Source: a virus. From it: a stretch of 28,933 bases of DNA. Position numbers and translations under genes: made by a program. Each line of letters starts with the position of its first letter. Position 1 is the stretch's first letter. The notes under the pieces were generated by a model. That model was not told where the DNA came from and made no database searches. It saw only the letters and a program-made list of their open reading frames with translations. Below are positions 3,233-11,416 of the stretch, piece by piece. The stretch spans positions 1-28,933 of the IMG/VR virus record IMGVR_UViG_3300040751_000902; one strand, written 5' to 3'.

Positions 3233-3387
3233 TATTTTTTTTTATTACCGTAGTTTTGCGGTCCACCAGCTTTAGTACATCTTACACCCCAACCTGAAGC
3301 ATAAGCACTAGGCCAAACCTTAAATTTTCTTTTTGCAGCAGCTTTACAAGCTGAACTTATTTTACCGTACAAAGGACTATTTGCCAT
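3232..3387 (-). CDS. Small basic conserved phage protein overlapping the end of the giant gene (51 aa)
   Basis: ATG at 3387, TAA at 3232, read from the sequence. It begins inside the last codons of the 2679-aa gene (11-nt overlap) and its stop overlaps the start of the 91-aa gene (TAATG). The product has the block AKRKFKVWPSAYASGWGVRC, a pattern I recall from short phage proteins (KRKF-x-V-x-PSAYA-x-G), then KAGGP and a lysine tail. It is very basic, with no membrane span. The overlap at both ends and the recognisable motif argue strongly for a real gene despite its length. Function unknown. Confidence 0.8.
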   Translation of the reverse strand: MANSPLYGKISSACKAAAKRKFKVWPSAYASGWGVRCTKAGGPQNYGNKKK

Positions 3388-6300
3388 CTTTCTTTTTATT
3401 TTGTAATTTTATAATTTGATCAACTCTTTGGTCTTCTTTAGTTAATGCTCTAATTTCTTTCTTAGTTAAACCTAAGTCCAATAGCATCTTAACTTGATCA
3501 GACTTATTAAGATCAAATAGTTTTTTAGTTTGCTTTTCAGTTTCAGTTAACACTGGCTTGTCTTCAGCTAAACCAAAATAAGGTAGTCCAATATCCCAAG
3601 TAGACCAACCTAAAGCTAGCGCAACTTTTTGCCAGTTTTCAGTAGCAGGATTTAGTATGTTACGCATATTGTTCATTTTCATAACAGCTCTATCTAGCGG
3701 TATATTGAATACGGCTGATATTGTTTGAGCACCTGCTAGGTAAGCTGGATTGTCCATACTGAAACCTTTTTCTTTTATTTCTTTACCATTCCAAGAAACA
3801 GTTCTAGCAGCTGATTTTAATTTTCTAATTTTAGATCCAAGAGCTGGAGCTATAGAAAGTAAATCATCAAGAGCTTCTTCGAACTTAGGCGACTTTTTAT
3901 CTGTTTGCTCAGCTATAGTCAATAAAGCGTTTTTAACACCAGCAATAACCGCGCCTTGAATACCAAGACCTTTTAACTGAGAATCAATAGCACCATTTAA
4001 AGCTCTTTCTAGTTTTTGCTCTTTGTTAGCTTCTGTTAACTCTTCATCATCTTCATCATCATCAAACATTGCCCAAGCTAAACCACTTTGCAGTGCATTA
4101 AACAATAGGTTTTGAATAGCACCGTAATAAACTATTTTAGATATATTAGCTCTCCAATCGCCTCTACCGTCAACTAGATCTTGTACAGCTCTTTTCTGTA
4201 TACGTACATACTGAAGTTGAGTGTTGCCAAATTGAAGTACAATACGACCTATCAAAGATCTTTGTTGTTGACTAATACGCATTGGACTACTTGATTGCTG
4301 GTTTTCTTCAGCTATTAATCTAAAGTCTTCAAAAGCTTGTTGCTCTGCTAGCTTTCTGTCCATGCCTTGTTCAACTAAAGATTCTATTCTATTTCTATAA
4401 AATGTAGCACCACCAGAAGCAATAGCAAAACTATCTGCGTATCTTGTAAATACAAAACCTTTATTAAGCAAGTATGATATAGCGGCATTAACTTTATTTT
4501 TACTACCTTCAACAGCATCGGCTATTTCAGATTCACTCACGTTAATTTTAAGACCGTCTCGTCTTTCAAGTAAATAATCAGAGTTCATAAGAGTTAAGAA
4601 GTCACCCCAAAATTGTTTTTGGTTAGCAAATGCTTTACCCGCCTTTAATATATTATTATCACCCCAATTTATAAAGTTTACCGCAGATATAGTCTGTAAT
4701 ACCGCAGATCTTGTATTTAAGAACATTATAGCACCAACAGAGTTGTTTAGCCAGTCTAGTATTTCGTTAGAAACTCTATCACCGCCTAACGGTCTATTAC
4801 TACCACTCTTCATTGCTCTAAGCGAGTCTTTCAATGCTTCAACGTACTTAGCACCAAAAGCAGCTTCAAGTTTATTCATATTCTTTTTAGAGAATATAAT
4901 ATCTACGTTTTCTTGCCACTCTTGTAAATACTCTGCTCTATTGACTTTGTTAATACCTGATATAACATCTGTAGTAATATTACCTGCCGTCCAGTCTTTG
5001 TCTGGTTTTGGATATGGTTTACCTTTCTGTATAGTAATAAGTTGATCAGCGAACGCCTGTAGTTCTGGATCTGCTTTAATAAAGTCTGTTAATCTTTTTT
5101 GATCACGCTTGGAAAGTCCTGGAACTTCTAGTCCTTGACTATCCCATATGTAGGTTCTAATAGCGTGTTGATATGAATATTTGGAAATACCAGTTTCTTT
5201 TTCCAAAGTTTTTGGTATGTTTTTAAATTGCTTTTTTAACGCTTTATAATCTCTACCAGCTGCAACTTTAGCTTGTGATATAGCCATTTCAGCTCTGTTA
5301 AATGGATCTAACAAGTTTTCCTTATAAAAAGCCATTTGAGCATCACCAATTTTACCTTTACCTAAGGTCTTATAAAGTAAACCTAAAAAGTCTTCAGCAG
5401 ATGGCGTTGTAAAGAAAGTAAACTTACCTTTATTTGCACCAACAGTTTTAGCTTTAGCAGCAGAAAATTGCTTATAAGATTCAATACCTGTTTTTTGCTC
5501 TATGATGTCATTAAAAACCTTATCAAATGTTTTTGTTTTACTAAACTTAGCTTGTTGTACTTTTGATTTAACATCAACTTGGCTAAGTACATCTTTAACA
5601 GCTTGAACATTTTTAATAGCATCATCAGCAAAATAAAAGTCATTATAACCTTCAGCGGCTTTACTAGCTATCCATCTACCTTTTGCAGCTGCAGTGCCAT
5701 CACCTAAACCTGTTATGTTTTGTAAAGGTATATCAATACCATTAGCTTTCATAAACTCTTGTATAGGTTTAGCGGCATCAGCAGGTCTTGCTGTTAATAT
5801 AAATATATCGTCAGTACCTCTTGCTGCAGCTATTTTTTTAGCAACGCTAAACAAAGGTCCTTTTTCACCTTCAATTACTCTACTAAACTCTCTAAAATCA
5901 AACTCTGCGCCTTGACTTTCTAAAACATCATACTCGGTAGCGAAGTTACTTGCGTCAACTTTACCAACCTTATTTCTGTTTATACCATTGTAAACTTTCT
6001 GTAAAAACTCATTAGGTAATGGTTTACCATATTCTATAGTCTCTGTATTAATCTCGTACAAACGATCGCCAAAATCTTCTCTATATTTTTTTAAGCTTTC
6101 TTGAACACTTTCGTAAGTTTTTTCTACAACAAAATCAGGTAGCGATCTTTCTGTTCTAGCCCTGTTTCTTTCAATTGCGGTTTCAAGCGGTGTAGTAGCT
6201 ACAACCATATGTACTTCAAAACCAGCATCTTCTAGAGCTTTTATTTTCTTAGTAGTGGCATTATAAGAAGCGCCTGTTCCATCTATAACCATACCATTAC

Positions 6301-9300
6301 CTGCAGAAGCGTATTTATCAAACTTAGCTACAGCGGCTTTTCTAGCAGCAGCACCAAGCTTTGATCTAGTAGATCTTTGCTCTGCTGTATAATCAGATTC
6401 TTTAGCTGGTAATCCAGCTTCTTCTTTCATAGCTTCTAGTGCTATATCTTGATTAACTACTTTGTAGCCACGTCTGCCAAGCTGCAGTCCTTTACCAACA
6501 TTTGTTTTACCAGCACCAGGACCACCAACCATAAATATAGCTTTTAAGTTTGTAGCACCTTCACTAAACCCACCTTCTACATTTGGCACAGTGTATAATA
6601 CTTGACTTTTAGATCTAGCCAATGTATCGTCAAAGTCAAATACTCTAATCTTTTTAACTGGAGCATCAGGGCGTCTAGCTTTGTTTAAAGCACTATCTAA
6701 AATACCTTGATTATAAATATTTTGTTGAGCTGATGGAATTGTTTTACTATACATTGACTTAGGAACAACCTCATCTAGTGCTTTTTCTACTTTAGGCAAA
6801 TCTTTAACACCTTGTTCGTTTAATTTTAAACCGCTGGGTGTTACATTAAATAAATCAAAAACAGACTTATTATTAGCCAGCATAATTGATTGAGGGTTTA
6901 TACCACCCTCTGTATTAGCTACATTTATATTAAAATATCTAGCCCAAATATTATCTGTAATTTTCCAGCCTTCTGGAGTAGATTCTACATAATCATATCT
7001 CCCGCCAGTTGGTTTAAAACCTTTTAGTCTATCGTCGTTTGTTTTTAGTAAAGCTCCTTGAAAAAAGTTTTTCTTTACATTTTTAAAATCAGAAGAAACT
7101 GTACCTCCTAACGCAGACATAAAAAGATATTTACCTATTAAACTAGCTGGTAATGTGTGCTCTTCTCTTATAGCTTGATCTAAATAACCTTTTTGATAAA
7201 ATTTCCAAGGTGCTGATTTTCTTATAAAATGATTTTGACTAGCACCACTAGAAGACATTATTGCCGCCACAAAAGCTATACCTTCTGGTGTTTTCATAGC
7301 GTCTTGAAATATTTCAAAAACTTTCTTTAACCCATTTATTGAATTTTCCTGTCTTTTTATAAAAGCTGGATCATTCAAAGCTTTTTCCATTGGAAGTCTT
7401 TTAGCTGTAGGATTTTCCTTTTTAAGCATGTCGCTAAACAACTGAGAGTCTTCAGCAAAAACACCTCCATTCGCTTCTGTTTCAGCGATCCATTCATTTA
7501 CCTCTTTTACACTTTTAAAAGGTAAATTACCTTTGAACTCTCTAAATTGACTTTCATCAATAACAACATCAGGATCTTTTGCTAATGATTCTACAAACTC
7601 ACGGGTTTCTTTTACAGCTTCACCAAACTTTTTAGTTTTATCTTTTAAAAGGTTTTCAGTAGTTCCTTGCATAGATCTCCAAAAGTCTTTAGGAAATTTA
7701 GATATCATACCACTTGAAACAGCATAGTCCTTAAATCTCTGTCTACCTTCTCGGGTTTTCATATCAATAGGGCTAACACCACTACCTTTCAATGTAGCTT
7801 GTAAGATAGCGCCCCATCTAAAATTATTAAGAGTACTAAAGTCATCTTTAACTCGTTCAAAAGGTAACGCTTGAAAAAGATTTTGGTACGCAGTTGTTTT
7901 ACTAAACTTAGCGCCACCGCGTAATCTTTCTGGTGTAGTAGTTACTAAGTCTTCAAACATGCGGTTTCTAATGTGTAAGTTTAATAAACCACGTATTGTT
8001 TGACCTACAGCATCTCTATATATTGGTTTAACAGGCTTTTGTCTAATAAGATCCATATAATCTTTTAGAGTACCTGTAAGTTTACCGTCTGTATACAACG
8101 CATTCATTACGTTTCTAGGTAAAAAAGTACCTTTACCAAAACCATCTTTAGTTTCAGGCAATCTAGCAAAATCGTTATTAGCGTTTTTAAGTAAGAACTG
8201 TTTAGCTGTTGTTAATCCTTCAGCATCTGTTTTCTGATAGTTTCTAGTTTTATCAGTTATAGTCTGAGGATTTAAACCAAACATACCAGCATATATATCC
8301 GCTACGGCTTTTGGCACATTTCTAGTTTGTCCAAAAGTTTTTATATCTTGACCTTTAAAAGCCTCGTTTGCAGCTTTTGTTATTCTAGTTTCAACTTCAG
8401 TTTTATCTTTAGCACCTATTTTTTCTACTTGAGCTTGAGAAAACTCAACTGTTTCAGTAGGTTTTTTAGCTATTGGCTTTTCCTCTGCAACGGTTTCAGC
8501 AGTTTCTTCAGCTACAACACCTTTTGCTTCTGTCACATCTGCTGTAAACTCTTCACCTAAAACTCTACGTGAAGCTTCTATAGCCCTAGCTGGTAAAAAC
8601 TTATTGATATAAGCGGCTAATGGCACGCCTGATTCTTGCTTGTATTCCATTATTAAATCAAGTATACCTCTTGGTCCAGTTTCTATTTCATCTGTTAGTA
8701 ATTGACGATCAAAATTAGGAGCTTGACTTCTTGCTTCTACGATTCTATTTGTAATAGGCTTAAACTTCTGTATAATATCCATAGCGCCAGATACGCCTTG
8801 ATCTTCATATATTTTTTGAACTTCATTAGAAGCTATTTCACGGTTAGTTACAGACTTTTTAATAATACCTAAATCAACTTCTTCAAGCTCTTGAAGTTTT
8901 TGTGCTCTTTCTGATATTTTACCTTTTTTGATGTTTTTCTGATAATCTTTTATAAAATTATAAACATCTCTACCGCTTTCGAAGTTTAACTTAGAATAAC
9001 CTTTAGGTCTAAAAATATCTAATATAGGTTTGGCTAAACGCATAAAGGTTTCTTTCAAGTTATCTTTGTAAGTAATTTCACCTTTACCTATAGCATCAGA
9101 AAAAGCAGTTAAGTATTCTTCAGCTTTTACCTCAGCTGTTGCGTCTTTATAGTTTTCCTCTATACGTTTATCTACTACGGCTTTTTCTTTTTCACTTAAT
9201 ATATTTTTAAAACTATCAACTAGCTTTAAGGCTGCGTTAGTATCTGCTTGAAAAGTAGATCTTAATATTCTATGCAGCAGTTCATGCGATCCAGCTGTTA

Positions 9301-11416
9301 TAGCTCCTACTTCTGCAGCTCTTTGTTTGTTTATAAATATCTTACCAATTTCATTTATAAAAGCATCAACTTCACCGTCTTGTCCAGTGGCTTCTACAAA
9401 TTCATCTATAGTGTCAAACGTTTGAACATTTTCTTTACCAGCTAAATCTTCTACAATAGCAACTTCACCTTCAATTAATCTTTTGTTTGCGTTAGCTAAA
9501 ACTCTATCTACCTTGTTTGTTAAAGCTTTATTACTGCTTGATACACCGCCTTTGGCTGATCCATATTGTTGAGCTGTTATTTTACCTTTTGATAAAGACT
9601 CGTTTAACTCTATAAGAGTTTCATTATTTTTCTTTTTTTGATTAAGTAAATCTAAAACTTCATTTTGCTCTTCTTTAGTCATTAAGTTTGTTAGTTTGTT
9701 TGTATTTTCTAACAAATCTTTTAGTGACTGCTCTTTTTCTTGTATCTGTAAATCTATAGCTTCTTTAAAAGCTTTATTACCACTTTGAGACTTTTGTAAT
9801 TGCAAGCTAGATACTTCTTGTATTAGTTTAGTAGCATTGTTAAAAACTTCAGTTTCTGTTATTAAAGCGCTATTTACAGATCTACCTAGCGATGTAGGTG
9901 CTGTCATAACTCCAGAACCGATTACACCCATCATGTAGTTTTCGAGATATTCTTTGGCGTTTCTAGGGTCAGTAATAGCATCGGTTAAAGCGACCGTAAC
10001 ACTTTTACCTTTACCTAAACCTTCGTTAACTTTTTCTGTCACAGCTTGTCCAACCTCAGTTAAACCCTCTTTGTTTTGAGTTAAAACCATAGTGGTTAAC
10101 GGCTTAAGTAGACCTGTTTTACCTATCAGGTTTTTCATTATGCCTTTAAAACCAACATATTCTAAACCAACCGCAATCCCGCCTAAAGCTAAAGGGGTTA
10201 CAACTTCAACCTCGTTATTTTGAACAAGCTTATCTATAGCGTCTGGAGTGTCACCGTATAAAGACTTAGCTTTTTGCACGTTATAATCAACATACATAGG
10301 TGCTGCTACTTGAGGAAATAAAGAAGCTCCTCTAGTTAATGCAGCTGGAATAACTGTAGATACAGTGCTACCAACGGCGTTTAATATACCACCGAATAAC
10401 TCTCTACCAGAAGTAAACTTTATATCAACACCATCTTCTAAGTCAAACTTATCAACTATATTACCAACGTCAATAATACCCTTACCAAGCTCCTCTGACT
10501 CTTTAAATCTTTCTATTATATAATCTTCTGCAAACTTACCAACGTTAATATCAGTACCTTTGTATTTTGTTTTGATTTCTTCAGTACCCATATTTCTAGT
10601 GTTTAATTTTTTCCACTTTTCTGGGTTTTCACTAAAATCAACTTCTTCGTTGGTCTCTGGATCTACAAAAACTATAGACTCATCTGGCATTTTTCCTACT
10701 AAAAAATCAGCGGCGTCTTTGCCTGCTACACTAGAAATCCAATTAGTAAAAGCAGCTTTAGTTCCTTCCCAAGCTTGCTCTAACTGAATAGGTATATTAT
10801 TAATAAAAACGGCTTCAGCTTGTTCAGCTGTTGTCATTTTAGCTATTTTTTCTTTTCTTTGTTTTTCAGCAACCTCTAAAGCTTCTTGCTGAATCCTAGT
10901 AAAAAAATCACTAAATTGCTCTCCTTCTTTTTTCTCATTTTGATACTTATCGTAAGCACTGTAAAGATCTTTATTTATAGTTTCATCTGGAGCTAACTCT
11001 AGTTGGTAATAAGCTATAGTTCTTTCTGGTGTTCCTGGTTCATGCTCTTTTAGTATAGAATTTATTTGGTCTTGTCTATATTTTTTTTGTTGTTTTTCAA
11101 ATTCTTTTATAGACTTACCAAAAACGTTTTCATGTATTTTATTAAAATCACCTTCTTGATATTGTGAATCTCCATCTCCATAAATTGCATCTGAAAATGG
11201 CGTCTCGGACGCATCCGGTGTTTTGGGTGGTACAGTTGCATCCGTTGTTTCCGCAACACCCTCTATCTTTACTTCTTTAACTTCAGGAGCTTCAATAGTT
11301 TTTACTTCAACTTCTTCAGTCTTGTTTTTTTCTTTAAACTCCTGAGCTTTAGCAAATATTTCTTCGCTAGATAAACCTTGATCTTGTAAAGATGCTACGT
11401 ATTCTAGTAATGTCAT
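3377..11416 (-). CDS. Giant polyvalent virion-type protein with zincin-like, HAD phosphatase and P-loop kinase modules (2679 aa)
   Basis: Probably packaged and injected with the DNA, inferred from its place after the T7 gp14-like gene, where T7 has gp15 and gp16. Order of parts: an acidic N-terminal tail; helical region with hydrophobic stretches near residues 335-430; HELLH (H711, E712, H715), a zincin-type metal site, with AEEYL downstream as a possible third-ligand region; a long helical middle; a HAD core with motif I FDFDDT (D1594, D1596), motif II ILTARP (T1875) and motif IV FADDA (D1931-D1932), holding an inserted P-loop kinase (GGPGAGKT, K1637); then about 700 mostly helical residues with SSPMRISQQQRSL near 2375 and a DDDEDDEE patch. 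The C-terminal region looks, from memory, like domains of the large polyvalent proteins of phages and conjugative elements (Iyer and Aravind's class). It is about twice the length of T7 gp16. I see no RNA polymerase motif. Molecular targets are unknown. Confidence 0.85.
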   Translation of the reverse strand: MTLLEYVASLQDQGLSSEEIFAKAQEFKEKNKTEEVEVKTIEAPEVKEVKIEGVAETTDATVPPKTPDASETPFSDAIYGDGDSQYQEGDFNKIHENVFGKSIKEFEKQQKKYRQDQINSILKEHEPGTPERTIAYYQLELAPDETINKDLYSAYDKYQNEKKEGEQFSDFFTRIQQEALEVAEKQRKEKIAKMTTAEQAEAVFINNIPIQLEQAWEGTKAAFTNWISSVAGKDAADFLVGKMPDESIVFVDPETNEEVDFSENPEKWKKLNTRNMGTEEIKTKYKGTDINVGKFAEDYIIERFKESEELGKGIIDVGNIVDKFDLEDGVDIKFTSGRELFGGILNAVGSTVSTVIPAALTRGASLFPQVAAPMYVDYNVQKAKSLYGDTPDAIDKLVQNNEVEVVTPLALGGIAVGLEYVGFKGIMKNLIGKTGLLKPLTTMVLTQNKEGLTEVGQAVTEKVNEGLGKGKSVTVALTDAITDPRNAKEYLENYMMGVIGSGVMTAPTSLGRSVNSALITETEVFNNATKLIQEVSSLQLQKSQSGNKAFKEAIDLQIQEKEQSLKDLLENTNKLTNLMTKEEQNEVLDLLNQKKKNNETLIELNESLSKGKITAQQYGSAKGGVSSSNKALTNKVDRVLANANKRLIEGEVAIVEDLAGKENVQTFDTIDEFVEATGQDGEVDAFINEIGKIFINKQRAAEVGAITAGSHELLHRILRSTFQADTNAALKLVDSFKNILSEKEKAVVDKRIEENYKDATAEVKAEEYLTAFSDAIGKGEITYKDNLKETFMRLAKPILDIFRPKGYSKLNFESGRDVYNFIKDYQKNIKKGKISERAQKLQELEEVDLGIIKKSVTNREIASNEVQKIYEDQGVSGAMDIIQKFKPITNRIVEARSQAPNFDRQLLTDEIETGPRGILDLIMEYKQESGVPLAAYINKFLPARAIEASRRVLGEEFTADVTEAKGVVAEETAETVAEEKPIAKKPTETVEFSQAQVEKIGAKDKTEVETRITKAANEAFKGQDIKTFGQTRNVPKAVADIYAGMFGLNPQTITDKTRNYQKTDAEGLTTAKQFLLKNANNDFARLPETKDGFGKGTFLPRNVMNALYTDGKLTGTLKDYMDLIRQKPVKPIYRDAVGQTIRGLLNLHIRNRMFEDLVTTTPERLRGGAKFSKTTAYQNLFQALPFERVKDDFSTLNNFRWGAILQATLKGSGVSPIDMKTREGRQRFKDYAVSSGMISKFPKDFWRSMQGTTENLLKDKTKKFGEAVKETREFVESLAKDPDVVIDESQFREFKGNLPFKSVKEVNEWIAETEANGGVFAEDSQLFSDMLKKENPTAKRLPMEKALNDPAFIKRQENSINGLKKVFEIFQDAMKTPEGIAFVAAIMSSSGASQNHFIRKSAPWKFYQKGYLDQAIREEHTLPASLIGKYLFMSALGGTVSSDFKNVKKNFFQGALLKTNDDRLKGFKPTGGRYDYVESTPEGWKITDNIWARYFNINVANTEGGINPQSIMLANNKSVFDLFNVTPSGLKLNEQGVKDLPKVEKALDEVVPKSMYSKTIPSAQQNIYNQGILDSALNKARRPDAPVKKIRVFDFDDTLARSKSQVLYTVPNVEGGFSEGATNLKAIFMVGGPGAGKTNVGKGLQLGRRGYKVVNQDIALEAMKEEAGLPAKESDYTAEQRSTRSKLGAAARKAAVAKFDKYASAGNGMVIDGTGASYNATTKKIKALEDAGFEVHMVVATTPLETAIERNRARTERSLPDFVVEKTYESVQESLKKYREDFGDRLYEINTETIEYGKPLPNEFLQKVYNGINRNKVGKVDASNFATEYDVLESQGAEFDFREFSRVIEGEKGPLFSVAKKIAAARGTDDIFILTARPADAAKPIQEFMKANGIDIPLQNITGLGDGTAAAKGRWIASKAAEGYNDFYFADDAIKNVQAVKDVLSQVDVKSKVQQAKFSKTKTFDKVFNDIIEQKTGIESYKQFSAAKAKTVGANKGKFTFFTTPSAEDFLGLLYKTLGKGKIGDAQMAFYKENLLDPFNRAEMAISQAKVAAGRDYKALKKQFKNIPKTLEKETGISKYSYQHAIRTYIWDSQGLEVPGLSKRDQKRLTDFIKADPELQAFADQLITIQKGKPYPKPDKDWTAGNITTDVISGINKVNRAEYLQEWQENVDIIFSKKNMNKLEAAFGAKYVEALKDSLRAMKSGSNRPLGGDRVSNEILDWLNNSVGAIMFLNTRSAVLQTISAVNFINWGDNNILKAGKAFANQKQFWGDFLTLMNSDYLLERRDGLKINVSESEIADAVEGSKNKVNAAISYLLNKGFVFTRYADSFAIASGGATFYRNRIESLVEQGMDRKLAEQQAFEDFRLIAEENQQSSSPMRISQQQRSLIGRIVLQFGNTQLQYVRIQKRAVQDLVDGRGDWRANISKIVYYGAIQNLLFNALQSGLAWAMFDDDEDDEELTEANKEQKLERALNGAIDSQLKGLGIQGAVIAGVKNALLTIAEQTDKKSPKFEEALDDLLSIAPALGSKIRKLKSAARTVSWNGKEIKEKGFSMDNPAYLAGAQTISAVFNIPLDRAVMKMNNMRNILNPATENWQKVALALGWSTWDIGLPYFGLAEDKPVLTETEKQTKKLFDLNKSDQVKMLLDLGLTKKEIRALTKEDQRVDQIIKLQNKKKDGK
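5533..5551 (-). repeat. AKFSKT boundary motif, copy 2 (exact 19-nt repeat of 7894-7912)
   Basis: The plus-strand word ttgttttactaaacttagc occurs here and at 7894-7912, encoding AKFSKT at residues 1956-1961, just after the HAD core and before FDKVFNDII. The sequence around it differs from the other copy, so only this short motif is shared. Confidence 0.7.
5600..6645 (-). other. HAD phosphatase core interrupted by a zeta-toxin/PNK-like P-loop kinase (within the giant protein)
   Basis: HAD motif I (RVFDFDDTLA, D1594/D1596) is followed after about 30 residues by a P-loop kinase: Walker A GGPGAGKT (K1637), VNQD, the Walker-B-like MVIDGTGA, and an arginine-rich stretch RNRARTERSLPD typical of zeta-toxin/PNK-type small-molecule or end kinases. 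The HAD fold then resumes with GPLFSVAKKI, motif II ILTARP (T1875), and motif IV DFYFADDAIKNV (D1931-D1932). So the kinase lies in the cap position of the HAD domain. The pairing recalls T4 polynucleotide kinase/phosphatase, but there the two domains are in series. Expected activity: phosphoryl transfer to, and removal from, nucleic-acid ends or a small metabolite; substrate unknown. Confidence 0.75.
7894..7912 (-). repeat. AKFSKT boundary motif, copy 1 (exact 19-nt repeat of 5533-5551)
   Basis: Encodes AKFSKT at residues 1169-1174 of the giant protein, before TAYQNLFQALP. It is the same 19-nt word as at 5533-5551. A looser relative, VEFSQAQ, lies near residues 990-996 where a low-complexity E/A/K/T linker ends. 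All three sit where the sequence character changes. Confidence 0.65.
9101..9420 (-). other. Zincin-like metallopeptidase segment of the giant protein (HELLH)
   Basis: H711-E-L-L-H715 (HExxH) is preceded by IGKIFINKQRAAEVGA, the strand-helix lead-in usual in phage zincins, and followed some 60 residues later by KAEEYLTAF, whose glutamates could supply the third metal ligand. In polyvalent proteins such peptidases are thought to process the polyprotein itself or host targets. A single HExxH pentamer can occur by chance; the conserved-looking surroundings raise confidence moderately. Confidence 0.5.

Follow-up and report, generated by a model that had tools for sequence, protein, structure and literature searches.

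A mobile P-loop kinase in the flap hairpin of a probable Pnkp-type HAD phosphatase within a giant podovirus protein

In T4 Pnkp (polynucleotide kinase/3'-phosphatase) and bacterial Pnkp1, a single chain combines a P-loop kinase of the Pnk clade with a HAD phosphatase; in T4 Pnkp the two are in series and the kinase comes first. Within the HAD superfamily, a domain placed mid-flap is termed a C1 cap; such caps are described as alpha-helical or alpha+beta units, and PNKP is placed among the C0 (open) HADs (PMC8069645). Zeta toxins and PezT, which are UNAG kinases, likewise have a P-loop kinase fold, and the residues essential in the zeta toxin are K46, D67, E116, R158 and R171 (PMC6356619). Polyvalent proteins of phages and conjugative elements (Iyer et al. 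2017, PMC5512222) are very large multidomain proteins encoded among virion genes, featuring peptidase-like motifs and variable domains that include a zeta-like kinase and an ART-like domain. The locus analysed here lies in a 28,933-nucleotide stretch of viral DNA (IMG/VR record IMGVR_UViG_3300040751_000902, positions 1 to 28,933; hereafter the window) and shares features with each of these systems while departing from all of them.

The nested enzyme pair is part of a giant ORF of 2679 amino acids (3377..11416, minus strand, as are all features given below) whose product is probably virion-internal and of the polyvalent type. The gene order runs from terminase (terL) through portal, capsid (MCP), virion proteins and two small ORFs to the giant ORF and an amidase. 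Portals of Flavobacterium phages, Maribacter phages and a spring-water podovirus share 42-52% identity with this one, from which the hosts of the uncultured podovirus family are judged to be probably Bacteroidota. At the same position, Flavobacterium phage elemo has a 3757-amino-acid ORF annotated 'structural protein', a label whose basis was not traced. Comparison of the whole giant protein with the isolate giants of elemo, Manatee Spring and Panino gave biased, low-quality matches only, and the relation is claimed as one of synteny, not of sequence homology. It is from gene order that we infer carriage of the giant protein in the virion and its entry into the host cell. The giant protein also contains HELLH at residues 711-715 (9272..9286), a candidate zinc-peptidase motif suggestive of peptidase activity; across 18 aligned giant proteins, HExxH has an invariant glutamate and second histidine and a nearly invariant first histidine. 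As in polyvalent proteins, dissimilar enzymatic domains are thus found together in one large protein encoded among virion genes, and the virion carriage proposed here agrees with the proteins of PMC5512222. Unlike the locus analysed here, the main text of that paper, as searched, mentions no HAD phosphatase, and no mention of a fixed module-exchange socket inside a single domain was found in it.

The HAD as a whole (residues 1588-1956; about 5549-6655) is one domain in two pieces with the kinase between them. Its N-terminal piece (residues 1588-1611; 6584..6655) provides strand 1 with motif I, the squiggle and the first flap strand; the inserted cassette with its linkers follows (residues 1612-1814, about 200 amino acids; 5975..6583), in which the P-loop kinase domain spans residues 1623-1790 (6047..6550); the second flap strand and the HAD C-terminal part (residues 1815-1956; 5549..5974) complete the arrangement. 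The HAD superfamily signature of DxD, T, K and DD is complete in the window protein, comprising motif I with D1594/D1596 (6620-6640), motif II with T1875 and R1877 (5786-5800), motif III with K1912 (5672-5692) and motif IV with D1931/D1932 (5618-5632). The kinase presents a Walker A motif GGPGAGKT with K1637 (6503-6526), VIDGTG with D1712GTG (6272-6289) and a lid RNRARTER with R1750, R1754 and R1757 (6146-6169); D1657 is the candidate base. An earlier note on this DNA, made from the letters alone, had proposed a complete-looking P-loop kinase inside a HAD phosphatase. Sequence mapping places D1594/D1596, K1637, T1875 and D1931/D1932 exactly where it had them, with the motif III lysine as an addition that completes the set; the location it assigned, 5600-6645, was right but slightly too narrow. 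In Pfam the kinase is recognised by AAA_33 (E 1.6e-16) and also by Zeta_toxin (E 1.9e-10; 40.9 bits, gathering cut-off 22.3), each match exceeding its gathering cut-off. Pfam misses the HAD of the window protein because it is too diverged and too split. Of its uninterrupted homologues, 27 of 27 match PHROG 415 'polynucleotide kinase' (best E 4e-8), and one (L061) also matches Pfam DUF2608 above cut-off. The HAD profile found nothing useful among PDB sequences, and a search of isolated phages with the HAD C-terminal part returned zero matches at E 1.

The nested topology was examined in an AlphaFold2 model of residues 1580-1975, built with 65 related sequences (pLDDT 89.4, pTM 0.78). In model numbering, the kinase (46-211) is located between flap strands 26-32 and 236-242, and HAD strands 10-15, 292-296, 322-324 and 347-352 surround it. 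The predicted strands and the insertion point reveal a Rossmann-like HAD core with squiggle and flap, the cap being in the flap; since a mid-flap insertion fits the C1 definition of PMC8069645, the kinase is, topologically, at the HAD cap position. The model thus predicts with confidence what the earlier note had proposed, namely a kinase nested in the flap hairpin at the C1-cap site and not in series, as in T4 Pnkp, with a packing of the two domains that is the model's own. The consecutive HAD and kinase domains that the note had named as a counter-finding do not appear in the predicted structure. Consecutive domains combined with a chance DxD upstream are likewise ruled out by the uninterrupted homologues, by the model and by the quantised motif spacing described below.

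Degenerate active sites in close relatives, the other outcome that would have spoken against the earlier proposal, are ruled out by motif conservation and by low dN/dS. Every one of the 142 non-redundant rows has HAD motifs I, II and IV intact, motif III is found in 137 of them by a strict pattern and is invariant in the 65-row alignment, and the four kinase motifs are intact in 57 of 57. In the kinase dN/dS lies at 0.05-0.15, and in the HAD C-terminal part at 0.06-0.22 (the N-terminal piece, at 24 codons, was not used), so that both display purifying selection. The low dN/dS argues that the nested arrangement is not due to chance. Both sites are predicted to be catalytic.

The point of insertion is the same throughout. 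A scan with the nested segment gave two classes of match, about 1180 bp and about 576 bp, that shared the same query ends, and the single insertion point immediately follows 'VLYTMP' and precedes 'K(I/L)(D/N)A..FA'. In 284 distinct HADs from related viral contigs, counted by distinct sequence from the best 80 hits in each of several scans and hence not as natural frequencies, the spacing from motif I to motif II takes only a few discrete values: 77-85 amino acids with no insert (about 180 HADs, one of them at 100), 124-125 with a 46-amino-acid insert (9), 209-217 with an ADP-ribosyltransferase-like (ART-like) insert (8) and 275-283 with the kinase (88), the two inserts other than the kinase together accounting for 17. 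The arrangement of kinase in HAD is kept in 7 of 7 near relatives of the window. The ART-like domain, found at 19 loci, is nested at the same point in 12 and located elsewhere in 7. It probably, although not certainly, belongs to ART-PolyVal (PF18760), with scores under the curated cut-off: free copies match at E 4.2e-6 (L254; 28.0 bits, cut-off 31.2) and 3.2e-5 (L267), and the nested copies tested match more weakly (E 0.01-0.09, one without a hit). Unlike the C1 caps described, therefore, the cap position is here taken by a complete kinase or an ART-like domain and varies between near-identical phages.

Comparison of relatives reveals that the insert has been repeatedly gained, lost or swapped, the analysis treating gain, loss and transfer together. 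A HAD tree that leaves the insert's columns aside shows at least 10 changes between kinase presence and absence on branches with good support, and a single clade of kinase-bearing HADs is rejected with a p-AU of 1.2e-6, in a test that used a quick tree and a group defined after the first tree was viewed. Nearly identical flanks surround different contents: L019 with the kinase and L209 with the 46-amino-acid insert share 95.6% nucleotide identity upstream and 90.9% downstream, and L024 with the kinase and L091 with no insert share 92.7% and 81.8%, respectively. A single ancient insertion that was vertically inherited is ruled out by the AU test together with these flanks. Relatives L100-L105 show protein identities to the window of 86-90% in the kinase, 54-63% in the HAD and mostly 42-54% in the next 300 amino acids (omitting two comparisons with short or lower-scoring alignments). 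Slow evolution of the kinase fails to explain this pattern, since among more distant sequences its conservation does not exceed that of the HAD. Kinases are also encountered without the HAD halves (L107, L108, L122), at other places in the giant protein (L113, which is also without the HAD, and L114), in tandem behind a complete HAD (L163, L164) and as separate genes of their own (L168, L169, L171). A separate kinase that could complement kinase-free HADs was found in none of 30 contigs by a profile search; the same profile matched 17 of 17 kinase-bearing contigs as positive control.

The nearest folds point to Pnkp for both domains, by small margins, and the Pnkp comparison drawn by the earlier note proved apt for both halves, as the PHROG 415 matches also indicate. 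For the HAD, an ART-bearing homologue, in which no kinase can steer the fold search, was modelled (pLDDT 89.2); its nearest match is the T4 Pnkp 3'-phosphatase (Z 12.4, rmsd 2.5, 127 residues), followed by Pnkp1 (Z 11.9) and, at a small margin, the next fold outside Pnkp (10.9). The kinase is closest to the C. thermocellum Pnkp kinase (Z 16.2), tied with O-phosphoseryl-tRNA kinase (PSTK, the tRNA(Sec) kinase; 16.1), and scores about 13 against both T4 Pnkp and Pnkp1 (T4 Pnk 13.7) and 14.1 against zeta toxin, with AvrRxo1 also among the matches. Arg38 of T4 Pnk, three residues after the catalytic Asp, is important. The HMM alignment pairs NRDDYR of T4 Pnk with NQDIAL of the family, leaving Arg38 unmatched, and an arginine three residues past the catalytic Asp is absent from every row of the kinase alignment. 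Other departures from T4 Pnkp are an insert that is optional and replaceable and a host chain that is a 2679-residue probable virion protein.

Based on this evidence, we hold with fair confidence that a Pnkp-type HAD with an exchangeable flap socket and a mobile kinase is the best explanation overall. On this view, a giant protein of Bacteroidota podoviruses, probably carried in the virion, incorporates a Pnkp-type HAD phosphatase whose flap-hairpin tip, at the C1-cap point, serves as an insertion socket. The window has this socket filled by a complete and mobile P-loop kinase that belongs to the Pnk/zeta/tRNA-kinase clade; in other members it is empty or holds an ART-like domain or the 46-amino-acid insert. 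The giant protein would enter the host cell and the pair would act, as the likeliest of its possible roles, on nucleic-acid ends. Such end processing, by a 3'-phosphatase core and an optional 5'-OH kinase, is our first choice because the HAD is nearest to the T4 Pnkp phosphatase and the kinase to Pnkp kinases; it is proposed tentatively. Against it are the missing arginine, a DGTG that resembles the EGTG of zeta, the rarity of RNA ligase and the prevalence of kinase-free HADs. RNA ligase PF09414 was detected in only 2 of 33 related contigs, many of them fragments, and the PF09511 profile was uninformative, as it matched nothing, controls included. ATP-dependent DNA ligase is present in 10 of 16 kinase-bearing compared to 14 of 16 kinase-free contigs (many again being fragments), hence the kinase has no positive link to it. 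Because most HADs have no kinase, the function common to the family cannot be end healing by both sites. A single obligate kinase-phosphatase machine is also made less plausible by an insert that is exchangeable and by a kinase that sometimes occurs without the HAD.

That the kinase is instead a zeta-type or other small-molecule kinase (for a sugar nucleotide, a nucleotide signal or an NAD-like compound) acting as effector, with the HAD as its carrier or as a phosphatase of unrelated substrates, we consider less likely than end processing, of which it is nevertheless a serious competitor. Zeta_toxin is above the Pfam cut-off, a zeta toxin is the profile's top PDB sequence match (E 1.4e-6), and zeta K46 aligns with the Walker lysine and E116 of IEGTG with the aspartate of the invariant DGTG, the GTG following a Walker B-like strand in both. 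The fold matches include AvrRxo1, a relative of zeta for which NAD phosphorylation has been reported (PMC5491322), zeta kinases have been described in polyvalent proteins before (PMC5512222), and the kinase can be found apart from the HAD. However, the structural score for zeta (14.1) is below that for Pnkp kinases (16.2), Asp replaces E116, and in the HMM alignment the catalytic Asp is one residue off D67, with Arg158 and Arg171 falling outside the aligned part. The window kinase differs from zeta toxins and PezT also by its Pnkp-like lid RNxxRxxR and by being embedded in a virion-type protein; no antitoxin gene was seen in the window.

The tie of PSTK for top structural match (Z 16.1), and the co-occurrence of kinase and HAD in one chain in 88 of the 284 distinct HADs (best 80 hits per scan), would also suit a protein or RNA kinase, for example a tRNA-directed one resembling O-phosphoseryl-tRNA kinase, whose mark the HAD reverses or tunes. 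This we regard as improbable: most HADs stand without a kinase and some kinases without a HAD, which means that a matched writer-eraser pair is not required. Least probable, and by our estimate very much so, are inserts that serve as structural spacers or are selfish domains tolerated at an exposed hairpin, with no enzymatic role in infection. The flickering presence of the insert among close relatives and the insert-free majority of HADs fit such a scenario, but the four motifs of the kinase, unbroken in 57 of 57, its dN/dS of 0.05-0.15 and the occupation of the same site by a second enzyme-like domain, the ART-like one, argue against it.

Under the preferred explanation of a Pnkp-type HAD with an exchangeable socket, the system extends both the polyvalent phage proteins and the Pnkp-like enzymes, and the socket is the more interesting part. 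By analogy with the tips of polymorphic toxins, we give an even chance to the idea that the HAD flap is a dedicated cassette-exchange socket, at which unlike enzymes would be swapped so that the phage renews its cell-delivered cargo and keeps the rest of the virion protein, and that the kinase as HAD cap constitutes an undescribed kinase-phosphatase topology. A literature search, which is no proof of absence, returned no kinase nested in a HAD; as far as it found, an entire P-loop kinase at the HAD C1-cap position has no precedent, and the case bears on the evolution of end-healing enzymes and of HAD caps. If the activity is indeed nucleic-acid end repair, the repair equipment would arrive ready-made instead of being expressed after entry. 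In nature, near-identical phages come in sets whose members differ mainly by the domain held at one hairpin, which would allow the role of a putative early-infection enzyme to be compared across variants. The kinase family itself reaches beyond these viruses: unlike the window, phages HTVC008M and Melnitz encode it without a nesting HAD in separate genes of about 220 amino acids, as does Agrobacterium phage Atu_ph07 within a 778-amino-acid protein, all at 32-36% identity to the window kinase.

The point in the flap hairpin of the HAD phosphatase domain at which the window's giant protein carries its nested P-loop kinase accommodates other inserts in related viral loci. An ART-like domain family, represented at loci L063, L081, L087 and L252-L270, is nested at this same point in 12 loci and is found in different contexts in 7 loci. 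A 46-aa insert (DMLDIVARRKFKKEFENLPS...), probably helical, occupies the point in loci L042, L046-L048, L051, L189, L199, L209, L228 and L328. Directly before the HAD, residues about 1300-1570 of the giant protein (window 6700-7520) share an identity of only 23-57% with relatives that match the downstream region at 54-97%, making this stretch a second variable zone.

Among the relatives, the 50-kb contig 3300025131_000066 (loci L029/L125 and L166) carries two giant ORFs, each bearing a HAD-nested kinase. In Maribacter phage Panino, the syntenic position is occupied by an ORF of 1829 aa (L281:35435-40924) that is annotated as tRNA methyltransferase and in which a Pfam search detected zero domains. 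Contigs L271-L273, which carry this phage gene, are binned into the Aliivibrio MAG JAAGZR01 and probably represent stray phage sequence. At the edge of the window, a fragment (3-1160) of the large subunit of a class I ribonucleotide reductase is encoded on the + strand, opposite to the giant ORF.
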